From assembly GCA_030834125.1 (NCBI GenBank), contig JAURFW010000010.1, positions 1 to 64,000 of the forward strand: 64,000 bases of DNA. Reading direction: 5' to 3'. Source of the stretch: Bacteroidota bacterium. GTDB taxonomy: Bacteria > Bacteroidota > Bacteroidia > NS11-12g > UBA955. Both the position numbers and the translations under genes were made by a program. Below, in pieces: positions 7,924 to 19,700 of this stretch; within the stretch, counting starts at the first letter, position 1; every line of letters starts with the position of its first letter. The notes beneath the pieces were generated by a model, which had not been told where the DNA came from, ran no database searches, and worked only from the letters and a program-made list of their open reading frames with translations.

Positions 7924-8871
7924 ATGAGTGAGAATATAGAAAAAATAGAGTGCTTAATTATTGGAAGTGGTCCTGCTGGATATACTGCAGCAATTTATGC
8001 AGCCCGTGCGGATATGAAGCCAGTGGTTTATGAAGGGCTTCAGCCGGGTGGGCAGTTAACCATAACAACTGACGTAGAAAACTATCCAGGATATCCGGAT
8101 GGTATTATGGGCCCTGAAATGATGGAGAATTTCAAAAAACAAGCTGTTCGCTTGGGAGCAGATGTGAGATTTGGATTAATTACTTCTGTAAAATTCAAAG
8201 ATGGTGGTCCACAAAAAGTTATTGTAGATGGTTCACATGAGATTGAAGCTAAATCAGTAATTATCTCAACTGGTGCTTCAGCAAAATGGTTGAATTTGCC
8301 TTCAGAGCAACGCCTAAACGGGAGTGGTGTTAGCGCATGTGCAGTTTGTGATGGTTTCTTTTACAGAAAGCAAGATGTTGCAATTGTAGGTGCGGGAGAT
8401 ACTGCATGTGAAGAGGCAACTTATTTATCTAAAATCTGTAATAAGGTTTACATGTTGGTTAGAAAAGATGAGTTTAGAGCGTCTAAAGCTATGCAGCATA
8501 GAGTACTTAACACTCCAAATATTGAAGTCTTATTTAATACTGAAACTGATGAAATTTTAGGTGATAAAGTAGTAGACGGGGTTAGAGTGTTTAATAATAC
8601 AACTGGTGAAAAGAAAGAACTGGCAATTACCGGATTCTTTGTAGCTATCGGACACACTCCGAATACTGAAATATTCAAACCATTCTTGAACATGGATGAA
8701 CAGGGTTATATTATCACTGAAAAAGGTTCAAGCCGCACAAATATTGAAGGTGTTTTCTGTTCTGGGGATGCTCAAGATAAAATATATAGACAAGCCGTTA
8801 CAGCAGCAGGTTCAGGTTGTATGGCCGCACTAGATGCTGAACGTTGGTTAGCTTCTAAAGAGTCAGTTTAA
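7924..8871 (+). CDS. trxB: Thioredoxin-disulfide reductase
   Basis: A 315-residue FAD enzyme that passes electrons from NADPH to thioredoxin in the cytoplasm. The FAD-binding motif GSGPAGYTAAIYAAR lies near residue 14, the redox pair is Cys139-Ala-Val-Cys142, and the NADPH motif GAGDTACEEA starts near residue 156. FCSGDAQDKIYRQAVTAAGSGCMAALDAERWL near the end is the second FAD contact region, and the length is normal. It is monocistronic: its own TAAATTTG element lies upstream and a strong hairpin with a T-tract follows 21 bases after the stop. Likely partners in the window are trxA (60.6 kb) and, through it, Bcp. Confidence 0.97.
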   Translation: MSENIEKIECLIIGSGPAGYTAAIYAARADMKPVVYEGLQPGGQLTITTDVENYPGYPDGIMGPEMMENFKKQAVRLGADVRFGLITSVKFKDGGPQKVIVDGSHEIEAKSVIISTGASAKWLNLPSEQRLNGSGVSACAVCDGFFYRKQDVAIVGAGDTACEEATYLSKICNKVYMLVRKDEFRASKAMQHRVLNTPNIEVLFNTETDEILGDKVVDGVRVFNNTTGEKKELAITGFFVAIGHTPNTEIFKPFLNMDEQGYIITEKGSSRTNIEGVFCSGDAQDKIYRQAVTAAGSGCMAALDAERWLASKESV

Positions 8872-8885
8872 AATTTTAATTTAAT

Positions 8886-8893
8886 TATATTTG
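8886..8893 (+). promoter_or_regulatory. Putative -7 promoter element (TATATTTG) for the Asp-box propeller gene
   Basis: TATATTTG matches TAnnTTTG and ends 5 bases before the ATG at 8899. Transcription would start at or next to the start codon, that is inside the left arm of the trxB terminator hairpin. No TTG is seen 20 bases upstream. Confidence 0.5.
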
Positions 8894-8928
8894 ACACCAT
8901 GCGAATTATTGCATGGTGTCTTTTTTTT
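8893..8928 (+). terminator. Intrinsic terminator of trxB, overlapping the next gene's start codon
   Basis: A perfect 10-bp stem, GACACCATGC (8893-8902) with GCATGGTGTC (8911-8920), has an 8-base loop and is followed by eight T (8921-8928). It sits 21 bases after the trxB stop. The ATG of the following gene (8899-8901) is inside the left arm. Confidence 0.88.
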
Positions 8929-10449
8929 GTGACTATATCATTAAGTGCACAAGTGAAGAATTATTTTCTTGGGGGATCTGAAATCTCAGGTGAGGAAATC
9001 AGTATCTCACTTAATACAACCGACAGAGATGATATTTGGATGGCGTTTAATAATAGTCGAGTTTTACATTCTTTAAATGGGGGAAAGCAATGGTTGAACA
9101 TAAAACTAAATCCAGTTCAAGGATTTTATGGTGACCCTGTAATTTACAAGAGTAAGCAAGGCGCAATATATCTGGCTCATTTAGCTAAAAATCCAGAGAA
9201 AAAATGGCCAGAACAATTCGACTGCATTGTATTTGAACGCTCAACGAATGGAGTTGAATTTCATTCTAAAGGCATTGGTAAAAATGGAAACAAAATGCAG
9301 GATAAGCCTTGGTTTTCTGTCGATGAGTTTTCTGAAAGTCCATATTATGGGAATATCTATTTAGCATGGACCGAGTTTGATAAATACGGAAGTGATGCAA
9401 ATTCAGATAGTTCTAGAATTCGCTTGGTGAGCAGCAGTGATTTTGGCGCAAATTTCACTGAACCTATTACTATTTCAGATGTATCGGGCGATGCCCAAGA
9501 TGATGATCAAACTGCCGAAGGAGCTGTAATAACTTCGTTGCACGACGGAACGGTATTGTGTGTTTGGTCTCGAGATGATACTCTTTGGTTAGATAGGAGC
9601 ATGGATGGAGGTAAAACATGGGGGAAAGACCAAGCTCTGTGCAGAATGAAAGGTGGTTGGAGTTATTCCGAAATACCAGGTATGTCAAGAGCTAATGGGC
9701 TCCCTTTCATTTGTTTAGATAAAAAAGGACGAGTTTATATTGTTTATGCTACAGAAAACAACAAAGGTGATTGGGATGTATTTTATCTTTATTCCAAAGA
9801 TGGAAAGTCTTTTACTAACCCGATTAAAGTAAATGATGACAATAGTAATGGTGATCAATTTATGCCTTATATGGAGATGGATAAGAACCTGGGATTTCCT
9901 CGTGTAATATGGTACGACACCAGAAATAGCAAAACAGGAAGATTTGCTCATATTTACACATCAGTTTTAAAAAATAAATGTCCTCAACATAATGTGAATT
10001 TAACGCTTGAACCAATTCCCCTTCCTGGAAGAGATGCTTTTATGGGTGATTATATAGGATTCTCTACCGTAAAGAATGAAGGAGGTTTTGCTGGTGTTAC
10101 TTCAATAAATTCTCAATCAAAAACTAATGGGGTTCTTATATTGGAATGGTTTGGTAAAAAGCCCAAAAGAAATCTTTTTCCACCTTCAATAACGATAAAT
10201 TTGAATGGAAATTCAGATTCTGTTTGGGTGGCATTATGTATTCCATTTGAAAGTTCTTGCACATTTGAATTGAAGATGGGAAATAAGACTGTAATGCAGA
10301 AGTATTATGGGCATGCAGACAGAAGTAATTTTGGTAAATATGAGTTGATGGAGGTGGCTATTCCAAAGAAGATTATCCCGGTTGGAGCCTCAACTTTTAT
10401 ATTAAGTAGAAGTAATAAATCAGTTAAACTTAATTTTTGGTCCGACTGA
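8899..10449 (+). CDS. Exported Asp-box (BNR/sialidase-fold) beta-propeller protein
   Basis: A 516-residue protein of unknown substrate. Residues 1-18 form a short signal peptide ending SLSAQ. Five Asp-box-like motifs are visible at about residues 58-65 (SLNGGKQW), 114-120 (STNGVEF), 178-185 (SSDFGANF), 233-240 (SMDGGKTW) and 298-304 (SKDGKSF), so a six-bladed sialidase-type propeller is expected. A C-terminal ~100-residue segment looks beta-rich. I could not place the arginine triad or tyrosine of true sialidases, so no glycosidase activity is assigned. The C-terminus lacks a recognisable T9SS sorting domain. The next Met in frame is at residue 48, after the signal peptide, so the ATG at 8899 is the believable start although it lies inside the trxB terminator. 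Confidence 0.8.
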   Translation: MRIIAWCLFFVTISLSAQVKNYFLGGSEISGEEISISLNTTDRDDIWMAFNNSRVLHSLNGGKQWLNIKLNPVQGFYGDPVIYKSKQGAIYLAHLAKNPEKKWPEQFDCIVFERSTNGVEFHSKGIGKNGNKMQDKPWFSVDEFSESPYYGNIYLAWTEFDKYGSDANSDSSRIRLVSSSDFGANFTEPITISDVSGDAQDDDQTAEGAVITSLHDGTVLCVWSRDDTLWLDRSMDGGKTWGKDQALCRMKGGWSYSEIPGMSRANGLPFICLDKKGRVYIVYATENNKGDWDVFYLYSKDGKSFTNPIKVNDDNSNGDQFMPYMEMDKNLGFPRVIWYDTRNSKTGRFAHIYTSVLKNKCPQHNVNLTLEPIPLPGRDAFMGDYIGFSTVKNEGGFAGVTSINSQSKTNGVLILEWFGKKPKRNLFPPSITINLNGNSDSVWVALCIPFESSCTFELKMGNKTVMQKYYGHADRSNFGKYELMEVAIPKKIIPVGASTFILSRSNKSVKLNFWSD

Positions 10450-14538: not shown

Positions 14539-16759
14539 TATAAATGAATTTTCCCATTGCAGTTTCGCTGCCATCTTGATTAATTCCAAAAACAAAATAA
14601 ACTCCACTGTTCGGTCTGCTACCATCTAGTCTGTAACCGTCCCAAGTAGCCTTGCTTCCATTTGCTTTGCCTTGATAGACAACTTTTCCTTGTAAATCTG
14701 TAATTCTAATCTCTGCATTAAAAGCCAAACCTTCAATAGTTACGAGCCCATCATATTTAGGAGGGACGGGATTGGGATAAATAACAATTTTACCAAATGA
14801 ATTATCTGCTTCTCCAGCATCATTCCTATATGATATGATACCCTTATTAGTGCCTATAAAAATTTCTCCAGTAGAAGTTATTTGTCCTAAACATAGCACT
14901 TGATTACTTAATAATGGACTGTTTTTTGATGTGAAATGACGTATCACACGCTGCCCGTATTCGTCAACACAAAATAATCCATTCTGAGTAGCAAACCATT
15001 TACGATTACCTCCATCAACTATGATATCTTGTATTATTTCTTCACCCATAAGGTATCCAACGATACCATCTTGCTCAATTATATAGCGATCTACCTTTGG
15101 TTGAGTAAACACATCGCCACCAGCAAAAACATTCAAACCTTGCAAATTCCCTAGCCAAACATAATTGTTCTTATCTACAGCAATTGACAGCACTTCATTA
15201 CTATTGAGACCATTTGATTGTGTTAGTATTCTTTGTTTATCATCTGATCGAGAGGTTAACGATTCACCTTCATTGAAAACTAAAACACCTCCAGAGGCAA
15301 TAGTCATCCATTTGTTGTTATTCTGATCGATGGTTAAAGAAGTTAAATTAGAATAAGGAAGATCAAACGAGTACCAATTGCCAGAAATATCTCGCATATG
15401 TAGAGGCTTTTCGGCATTATAATTAATTACCCATAATTGCCCTTTTTCGTCGATATCAATTCCACCAATATGAATAAAACTGGTATCTCCAATGCGTTTT
15501 AAGGTAGAATTTGTATGATTGATATGTTCAATCACGCTGCCATTCAATATTTCTAGGATTCCCCCTGTATGGGTAGCTACAAAATAATGCTGATTCCATT
15601 TTGAGTAGGCAGTAAAAGTAAAGTCGTACAGATTTTGTATTATTGGTACATGAGGATTACTCTTCCATTGATAATCTCGGAATAAATAGAATCCAGAGGT
15701 GTTATAGGCATTACCAAAAGTACTACTTAAACCACCGCCGGAACATATTAGTGTTTCTCCGCCTTTAGACATTCCAAAAACAGACTGGTTATCTGGACCA
15801 TTAGGCATATATGCTATTTCCCCATTAGGATCTTTCTTTATTACTCCTGGTCCCAATCCTGTACAGAACCAATAAACCCCATCGGTAAACTGCGTTGCAT
15901 GCACCACTAAATTAATAGGTTCCGTATTTGATCCATTTGTTGTGATGTTTTCTATACCACCTGGTCTTACAATATGTAAACCATTTGTGTTTGAAAAAAT
16001 TCGTGCAATTGCATTTTTGCTTACATTCAATGGCTGTATGGCTCCATTTTCGTAAGTATAAACAATACTATCTGAAGCAAAGTAGATTTTATCATTATAC
16101 GTACACAGCTGATTTGCTATAAGATTAGGGAAACGTGTAAGCCATTGATTATAATCATTAAGATTTACCAATCTATTCCAAGGAGCAATGCGAAAACCTG
16201 TGGGAGTTGCAACATATACTGAATCGTTTAAAACTTCAGTTGATAGTACAGCTATCGCACTTCCTCCTTCACCTATAGATGTGTAACTATCGCGAATTTC
16301 TTCTTTTAATAAGTCAACTACCAGCAAGCCAAAATTAGTACTAACTAAAGCGTCGTTATTATGAAATGAAACGTCTAAAATACGCTTATCCCCTTGAAGA
16401 AACTTATCTCTAAACCCTGAAATATCCTTTATTTTTTTGTCGTTTACCAATAGTGAAATATGACCATCTAAGTAACCGATAAATAATATTTTTAAACTTG
16501 GATTATATTCTAAACAGGTAATCTCATTTGCATGAAATCCGGCTGAAGAAAGAAGCAATTCCATTTCTCCAGAATTTGATGTCCTCCAAAAACCATTTGT
16601 TGTAGAGGCATATATAAAATTTTCTGTTGATTCGCAGAACTTTGGATTTCTATAAGATAAGTGTGTTCTCCATTTTCCCGTGGGGATTAACGGATTTACC
16701 TGTGCTGTTAGTATACTTAAAAACAATAAGAGACCTAAAAAAAGAATTCCCTTTTTCAT
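14531..16759 (-). CDS. porZ: T9SS attachment-complex protein PorZ, two-propeller with C-terminal sorting domain
   Basis: A 742-residue outer-surface protein of the type IX secretion system. In Porphyromonas PorZ binds anionic LPS and works with PorU, PorV and PorQ to attach cargo. Residues 1-20 are a signal peptide starting MKKGILFLGLLLFL. GKWRTHLSYRNP opens two seven-bladed propellers of the type also found in hybrid two-component sensors (IYASTTNGFWR, KWFATQNGLFCVDEYG). The last ~85 residues are a type A sorting domain with IYPNP, ITDLQGKVVYQG and NSGVYFV. The ATG at 16759 is preferred to an ATG at 16792, which would overlap sprA and put 11 residues before the signal peptide. It starts 1 base after the sprA stop. 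Confidence 0.87.
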   Translation of the reverse strand: MKKGILFLGLLLFLSILTAQVNPLIPTGKWRTHLSYRNPKFCESTENFIYASTTNGFWRTSNSGEMELLLSSAGFHANEITCLEYNPSLKILFIGYLDGHISLLVNDKKIKDISGFRDKFLQGDKRILDVSFHNNDALVSTNFGLLVVDLLKEEIRDSYTSIGEGGSAIAVLSTEVLNDSVYVATPTGFRIAPWNRLVNLNDYNQWLTRFPNLIANQLCTYNDKIYFASDSIVYTYENGAIQPLNVSKNAIARIFSNTNGLHIVRPGGIENITTNGSNTEPINLVVHATQFTDGVYWFCTGLGPGVIKKDPNGEIAYMPNGPDNQSVFGMSKGGETLICSGGGLSSTFGNAYNTSGFYLFRDYQWKSNPHVPIIQNLYDFTFTAYSKWNQHYFVATHTGGILEILNGSVIEHINHTNSTLKRIGDTSFIHIGGIDIDEKGQLWVINYNAEKPLHMRDISGNWYSFDLPYSNLTSLTIDQNNNKWMTIASGGVLVFNEGESLTSRSDDKQRILTQSNGLNSNEVLSIAVDKNNYVWLGNLQGLNVFAGGDVFTQPKVDRYIIEQDGIVGYLMGEEIIQDIIVDGGNRKWFATQNGLFCVDEYGQRVIRHFTSKNSPLLSNQVLCLGQITSTGEIFIGTNKGIISYRNDAGEADNSFGKIVIYPNPVPPKYDGLVTIEGLAFNAEIRITDLQGKVVYQGKANGSKATWDGYRLDGSRPNSGVYFVFGINQDGSETAMGKFIYIK

Positions 16760-16760
16760 T

Positions 16761-19700
16761 TTAGTTGAATGTGTAGCGTAATTCAATACCAAAATCGGTT
16801 AACGAAGTGTAGAATTGGGTATTGATTTTTGGATCCATTATAGTTCGGTTATAACGAAGTGCTAGATTTATTTTCTGATTTACCTGATAAGTGATAGATG
16901 GAGTAATTTTAATATTGGTCATACCCGCAGTATATCTGTTTACATCTACATCTATTTTTCTAATAATTGTAACATTATCACTAATAGACACTGCTAAATC
17001 AAATCTAAAGTCATTTGGAAGATATAAAGTTTTACCTCTTCTTTTTATAGGAAGGTTTAAACCTGTTACTCTGTAACCTGCAGAAATTTGAATATCATTT
17101 TGTCTCATTTCCGTTAGGTTGAAACTTGCGGCAAATAACTTAAGTACACGAGATCTTTTGTATTCAAAACCTAATGTCCAATTATTGGTAGTAGTAATAT
17201 TAACACCTATCAATGGAAAGAATCCTTCACTAATAGATACATCAGCAATTTGATATTTAGGAATTAAATCTTTTCCAATTTCTGGAGTTTCTTTTTCGTC
17301 GTACTTTAAGTTCCTAGTATAATTTCCAACGCTGTAATTTCCTTTATAGGCGTGCTTAATATTGATATTTGTGAATATATCTTTTAGAATAGGAAGTTGT
17401 GAAAGACCATTATAATTAATATTCCAATTTGGCAATGGAATACTCGGGAATGCACCAATTTCGGATCTTCCCACATCTAAACCTGCATATGCAGCATAGA
17501 ATCCGCCAATTATAACATCTTGGGATGCTTTACTGTAACCCAATGGGAACTTAGTATTTGTATCAATAACTGTTCCTGAGAATCTAGGATCTGCCAGTTG
17601 AAGGCGTTGCGCTACTGTATACCTATTATCTACAAAACTTTGAAAAACAGGGTTTGGATAATTCGACTCACCAGATTTAATATCTTTAACAAAGTGTGTA
17701 TTAATAAATAATCCTGTAACCGAGTAGGTCCCGGTTTCCGTTAAACCTTGGTCCATCCATTCAAACCCATCGTATTTGAAAATACTCTGCATACCTCTAG
17801 TTTCACTTCTATTTATATCTAATCTAATTCTAAAGGCCTTAATGGGTTCAATAGTTATGCTACCCGTAATATTTTGAGTGAAGTTATTTTTATAAAAATT
17901 GGATTGTCTTGGATCTTGTTTAAGGGCATTTTCTGCAGCTAAATTGTAACGTAAGTTAGGATCTTGAATACCAAATACGAATGGTAAACCAGGTTGTAAA
18001 TGTTTAAAGTTTTGTCCAAAATAATCGGGAGTATGCGAAAATCCTGGCATCATTGTAGTTTCCTTTCGGGTGTATGTAAGGTTAGCATTTTTAACCATGG
18101 TAATTAAATCGCCGACCATAACCAATAACGGATTTGGTTTTTTACTTACGGGTTTGTCATCTTTTGAATCAGCATCACCATCCTTCCCATCACGCGAAAC
18201 TGATCTTCGGCTTATATTCTTTGGTCTATTGTAATCCTTCAACCATGGTATTTTGGAATATAACTGTGTTAAATTAAACTGGGTAGTAATATTTATATCC
18301 TGACTATTTTGAATCGTGTTACCTAAAGTTGAAAATGCGGGTGGTGCTTGTTGCCACTCATAACTACCTGTATAATTTACGCTTGAGTTAATCCAACGCA
18401 AAATTCCAATTTTAGAGAAGGGTAGAGTATAGGTAACATTTGTATTTTGGTAGAATCTTGTCATCCTTCCAAAGCCCCTAAATTCAGATAAAATTGAGTC
18501 TTGTTTTTCTTTACTATCTATTGCTCCAAAAGGCTCTTGAATTCTAGCCTCTACGTTAGCTGCATAGGTTATGTTTAATGAACGAGCCAAGGGTAGTGAT
18601 AAATTGAAATTTCTATTTAAGGTGAAATTTTTATCATACAATCTAGGGTTAATCTGTACGAAGTTATTATTGTTTCTTGCTTGGTTTTCGCTGTATAATC
18701 GATTCAGTTGAAGTTGAGAAGTGAAAGAGGACGGTATTAAATTAAAGTTGAAATCCTTTAATAGTTGTAGATGTTTATTTCTTATTTTCCTAAACGGTTG
18801 AATGAATTGGGTATTTAAGGAATAGACATAACCTAGTGTTGCTTGTGTTGTATTAATAAAATATTCTTCAATTTGTTGATTACGTCTATATTGACTCTGA
18901 TAACTGTAACTTCCATTAAAATTGGAAATATCCCAGGGGTATTTTTTACCTGAGCCTGTTTTGGCTACTTTAAAGTTATTAATATTAAAGCTAAATAAGG
19001 AATTGTAATCTTCAGCTGCCTTTCTTAATTCATCGCGCACTGCTAGGTTCGTAAGCTGATTCAAGTAAGGTTCTAGTTCAATATCTGGGTTTAATGGATT
19101 GAATTTAGGTTGAATAAAGTTTTCAGACCATCCCAAATATACAGGAATACTTACACCCGCTTTTTGAGGGAAAAATTTACCAAACTCTAAATTAGAGGCA
19201 ATATCGTAGTTGTAATTATTAGAAAGACTTCGATCATTCAATTTTTTATCTACATCTCCAAAACCAATTGTTCTGATAGAACCAGCCATATTAAGTTGAC
19301 CAAAATCTGCAAGCTGGGCTTGTAGGTTTGCTAGTGCTGCCCAACCGCCACCATTGGCAATATCTTTAACGCGAAGTTCATTAGTCCAAACCTCAAAACA
19401 TTGAGGGACATTAGAATTATTTTTAACACCAACCATCATTACTCGAATATTAGATAAATCTGGCAATCCCATTACTGTGATCTTACCTTTTTCAATAGGT
19501 CTTACGTAGGGTGCTGTCATTGGCCAACTCGCATTTTGTCTAGCCAATTTTAGGTCAAATAATTTTTGAAATTCAAGGTCAATAAAATTATCATCAGGCC
19601 ACACCAATTTGTCTGCATTGGAAAGATTTGCGTTTACAAAACCGCGAGTCATTTTCAAGGGAACCTCGTACTCATAATAGTTATTGCTTAAATCTGTTCC

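Follow-up and report, generated by a model that had tools for sequence, protein, structure and literature searches.

A predicted trxB terminator that overlaps the putative leaderless start of the next gene in a freshwater Bacteroidota genus

In the late genes e (lysozyme), soc, I-TevI and segB of phage T4 the promoter lies in or beside the 5' arm of a hairpin, such that only the longer, early RNAs form the hairpin and the gene's own RNA escapes it; the hairpin conceals the Shine-Dalgarno site and blocks translation only (PMC3014915, PMC2988022). Bacteroidota do without Shine-Dalgarno sites, and the promoters of Flavobacterium johnsoniae carry a -7 box, TAHHTTTG, that lies 4–5 nt from the RNA start (PMC6847099). 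Leaderless mRNAs have been put at 5.5% in F. psychrophilum (PMC9723704), and 5' UTRs of under 10 nt at 3.7% in B. thetaiotaomicron (PMC7366714).

Here we describe the junction between trxB and the gene for an exported, BNR-like propeller protein, within a window of 64,000 nucleotides of one Bacteroidota genome (G000). The junction resembles the T4 late-promoter hairpins in that escape would depend on where the RNA starts and in that the hairpin covers the region of translation start. It differs in that the G000 hairpin carries a T tract and is terminator-like for the upstream gene, in that the downstream RNA is predicted to be leaderless, and in that the right arm codes for part of a signal peptide. 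The leaderless mRNAs of Flavobacteriia and Bacteroidia, a minority in the species studied, likewise have a TAnnTTTG-type promoter that places the RNA start at the start codon, but at the G000 junction the predicted trxB terminator overlaps it as well. As a Bacteroidota intrinsic terminator, finally, the trxB hairpin is typical in its G+C-bearing stem, its T-rich tail and its position 20–29 nt after the stop, but it takes in the next start codon and follows the putative -7 box of the propeller gene. A limited literature search gave, among the titles and abstracts it listed, no direct precedent for terminators overlapping start codons, and no published terminator that the downstream gene's own RNA evades, which is weak evidence of absence. 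The elements of the junction are as follows.

7924–8871, plus strand: trxB, thioredoxin-disulfide reductase, with TAA stop at 8869–8871 (assigned from NCBIfam TIGR01292, 388.6 bits, above the cut-off, and the ORF).
8886–8893, plus strand: TATATTTG, predicted Bacteroidota sigma-A -7 box, ending 5 nt 5' of the ATG, with the RNA start predicted at 8898–8899.
8893–8902, plus strand: GACACCATGC, the left arm of the predicted terminator, which holds the start codon of the propeller gene.
8899–8901, plus strand: ATG of the propeller gene, the sole possible in-frame start, at the same place as the starts of homologues.
8899–10449, plus strand: exported BNR-like propeller gene, 516 aa, with signal peptide MRIIAWCLFFVTISLSAQ.
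8911–8920, plus strand: right arm of the terminator stem, GCATGGTGTC, doubling as signal-peptide code (A-W-C).
8921–8928, plus strand: T8 tract, the predicted 3' end of trxB RNA, also encoding L-F-F of the signal peptide.

The original prediction, made from the letters of the window, had placed a 10-bp stem with eight T residues after trxB, the ATG at 8899 within its left arm and TATATTTG ending at 8893, and each of these elements was found exactly there. The stem extends to 12 pairs if one G-U and one A-U pair are counted, has a folding energy of -18.3 kcal/mol and begins 21 nt past the trxB stop, so that a stem-loop and T-rich tract stand at normal stop-codon distance, as in an intrinsic terminator. 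Similarly, TATATTTG matches the sigma-A promoter pattern of TAHHTTTG 4–5 nt before an RNA start, the start here being one that we infer. A misplaced start codon was rejected, since upstream of 8899 the frame of the propeller gene runs open no further than the trxB stop, no other ATG, GTG or TTG occurs in that frame between the stop and 8899, and homologues start at the same place. A search of positions 8500–9300 against Rfam 15 gave no match at the gathering score, and an E. coli-type promoter scan, a type unsuited to this phylum, gave no plus-strand site near the junction. The N-terminus MRIIAWCLFFVTISLSAQ was judged a signal peptide by eye and is followed by ~500 residues of BNR-like propeller; the 516-aa protein hit Pfam BNR_2 with an E value of 4.4e-6, below the curated cut-off, and matched nothing in NCBIfam. 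A homologue is present in 53 of the 57 genomes searched.

To place the hairpin against its genomic background, we used 1.58 of the 2.30 Mb of G000 (~70%) and 0.40 Mb of genome G006, with genes called by a simple ORF rule. G000 terminators concentrate 10–29 nt after stops, and the modal class among 118 of them, into which the trxB hairpin falls, is formed by the 53 that start 20–29 nt past the stop. Folding energies of -18.3 kcal/mol or lower were seen in 7 of these 118 post-stop terminators, and an all-T (8/8) tail in only one. Every ORF start was also scored for a hairpin with a T tail and with the ATG inside its left arm; among 1171 ORFs in the 1.58 Mb of G000, one other start alone scored equally, at L153:7482, where translation more likely begins at a second ATG further downstream, which has a -7 box to itself (TATTTTTG). 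This genome-wide score, together with the comparison across the genus, led us to reject a chance overlap of terminator and start.

We compared the junction in 14 genomes of the genus, which is a freshwater one. All 14 carry trxB followed by the propeller gene, which starts 18–29 nt past the trxB stop, and in 12 the ATG lies inside the left arm of a T-tailed, terminator-like hairpin. Homologues starting further downstream, which the original prediction had named as evidence that would tell against it, were not encountered: 12 of the 14 genomes share this ATG, and the remaining two start at an ATG in the corresponding position. The 12 hairpins fall into six stem sequence types (arm/arm): AGGGATGAAA/TTTTATCCCT, AGGGATGAAA/TTTTGTCCCT, GGGGATGAAA/TTTTGTCCCC, AGGAATGAAA/TTTTATTCCT, GGGGA(A)TGAG/CTTATCCCC and, in G000, GACACCATGC/GCATGGTGTC, which leaves few independent cases. 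Aligned arm against arm, in a register set by hand that biases toward structure and with the bulged stem of G002 excluded, 98.5% of cells are paired and 6 of 11 pairs have changed on both sides, a count that was matched by none of 500 shuffles; slid registers yielded 1–2 such pairs. The compensated conservation that the original prediction had proposed looking for was thus recovered. Random synonymous recoding of the first codons produced an equal hairpin in 0 to 47 of 4000 trials in 10 of the 12 genomes, the support being weaker in G002 and G012 (262 and 329 of 4000, respectively). On the trxB tree G000 lies within a clade (97/96) of genomes bearing another stem, so the stem of G000 looks to have been replaced, rather than merely inherited, with the layout retained; the propeller tree leaves the placement of G000 open.

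The exceptions are of two kinds. In G001 and G011 the box persists along with a CCCATG/CATGGG pairing, but a T-tailed terminator is absent; G012 keeps a hairpin (weaker, with T5) and has no recognisable -7 box. The first kind lends something to the idea that the inverted repeat serves as an operator for a protein or as a hairpin that blocks translation, the T run being mere Phe/Leu code of the signal peptide, in which T-rich codons are usual: G001 and G011 do pair the start codon without a T tract. We regard this as very improbable, as the arm sequences vary among lineages while the pairing is retained, and the T run follows the right arm immediately or one base later in all 12 hairpin-bearing genomes. 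A protein operator in particular was rejected because the arm sequences are not conserved. A plain terminator crowded by a compact genome is another explanation, in which trxB requires a terminator 20–29 nt past its stop and the next start codon just happens to fall there; either the escape of the gene's own RNA is then a by-product on which no selection acts, or read-through gives the second gene a low level of expression. The clustering of G000 terminators at 10–29 nt after stops is as this explanation would have it, and the hairpin after a G000 tRNA-Leu gene and one G006 terminator likewise overlap a predicted next start. Against it, however the stem differs among lineages, the ATG and the box stay in register with its outer G+C-rich pairs, and at other tight junctions of the leaderless type a terminator is absent or stands upstream of the box; crowding alone is accordingly unlikely in our estimation.

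The promoter was examined in the same genomes. TAHHTTTG or TAHHTTCG ends 4–5 nt before the propeller ATG in 13 of the 14, the box having TTCG instead of TTTG in four, and no other copy of either motif occurs within 400 nt upstream of the ATG in any of the 14, which disfavours a promoter further upstream. Across 1168 ORF starts of G000, TAHHTTTG stands at a spacing of 4 in 40 cases and of 5 in 27 (67 in total), compared with a per-position background of 0.8 well upstream of the starts and of 3.4 at distances of 13–40 nt, and the best of the permuted motifs reached 8 at these spacings. TAHHTTCG also peaks at a spacing of 4 (12, against a background of 0.35–0.8); the two motifs together precede the ATG by 4–5 nt in 82 of the 1168 ORFs, forming a sharp peak. 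We considered an artefact of ORF-start calling and rejected it, since spacing 5, which is immune to in-frame TAA bias, peaks as well, and the first H is A in just 15 of the 40 boxes at spacing 4. The genome-wide peak indicates that leaderless promoters appear to be common in this lineage, and suggests that leaderless mRNAs are a main class within it. TATATTTG is very probably the promoter of a leaderless RNA, as originally predicted, given its position in 13 genomes and the enrichment of that spacing genome-wide.

We then considered how the two transcripts would fold. In the 12 hairpin-bearing genomes the full hairpin has a predicted energy of -10.1 to -19.6 kcal/mol, against -2.4 to -6.9 kcal/mol once the RNA is cut at the ATG; from the putative RNA start, that is, the gene's own transcript is predicted to lose the 5' part of a hairpin that RNA from upstream forms. 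For G000, an RNA from 8899 retains 6 pairs (ATGCGA/TTGCAT; -4.2 kcal/mol) that stop 6 unpaired nt short of the T run. This corrects the original figure of only 4 pairs. The outcome is sensitive to the start site, as an RNA from 8898 has 7 pairs and -7.4 kcal/mol and one from 8897 has -10.0 kcal/mol, and starts 1–2 nt further upstream would keep -10 to -12 kcal/mol of stem. In the proposed mechanism, polymerase arriving from trxB would transcribe both arms, the stem would form and the RNA would end in the T run. Polymerase recruited at the -7 box would instead start the RNA at the ATG or one base before it; this RNA would lack the outer segment of the left arm, which is rich in G+C, therefore no stem would abut the T run, and transcription would continue. 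In read-through RNA the AUG would be locked in the stem, and it is plausible, on this folding model, that hiding the ATG lowers translation.

We therefore think it probable that the hairpin is the intrinsic terminator of trxB and that it overlaps both the leaderless promoter and the opening codons of the propeller gene, so that RNA from this promoter would escape it. The basis for this reading is the sequence, its conservation through matched changes, the promoter spacing and the predicted loss of folding energy, and we infer that RNA ends and starts lie at the predicted positions. These comparisons support the interpretation of a terminator escaped from an own promoter that was first put forward for the window.

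The neighbouring genera bear on how such a junction may have arisen. At nine of their trxB–propeller junctions the two genes lie -1 to 20 nt apart, and a -7 box is absent, as is any start-spanning terminator of note. These tight, terminator-free junctions suggest that trxB and the propeller gene probably descend from an operon, and the splitting of the operon junction into two units seems to be specific to the genus. Such an ancestor also makes room for a different account, in which the hairpin is a translation-controlled attenuator within a trxB operon: a ribosome that starts at the ATG, or arrives from the trxB stop, would melt the left arm and let polymerase pass, so that expression of the second gene would hinge on its own initiation and the -7 box would be unnecessary. 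The AUG, which lies inside the left arm in all but two of the 14 genomes, is compatible with this, as is G012 with its hairpin and no box. However, the stem starts at a distance from the stop that is ordinary for G000 terminators, and attenuation leaves unexplained a box that all but one of the 14 genomes have, at a spacing for which the genome-wide enrichment is strong; we consider it an improbable account. For the terminator with own-RNA escape, a broader formulation that we favour on balance, with somewhat less assurance, is that a conserved insulator of ~40 nt, derived from an operon junction within this genus, combines terminator, leaderless start, start codon and signal-peptide code. Such an insulator would give neighbouring genes separate transcripts with almost zero intergenic DNA. 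If this is true, a terminator can discriminate between transcripts by their start point with no protein factor, compact genomes can insulate adjacent genes without intergenic DNA, and the junction offers a natural system, in multiple versions, for termination versus leaderless initiation in a phylum free of Shine-Dalgarno sites.

Several other arrangements were observed in passing. At L153:7450–7530, L074 and L048 there are compact junctions with a terminator upstream, its T run leading into, or lying just short of, the -7 box that serves the following leaderless-type gene. On the minus strand of L180 (G000), at ~17250–17300, a hairpin with a T-rich tail (TCGACGGTCGAAACATGGCCGTCGA-TTTGTTTTTG) follows the tRNA-Leu gene, and the ATG of a 282-aa ORF sits in its loop and right arm. 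At L093 ~16260–16320 (G006), the right arm of one gene's terminator holds what is predicted to be the ATG of the following gene, which encodes an exported protein (MVRRFFLCVVVLMFFQTICYGQ). In L005 (G011) and L008 (G001), the first ~110 nt of the propeller gene form a very long hairpin, AATTGGGGTGTTTTGGG...CCCAATACGCCCCAATT, with no T tract.
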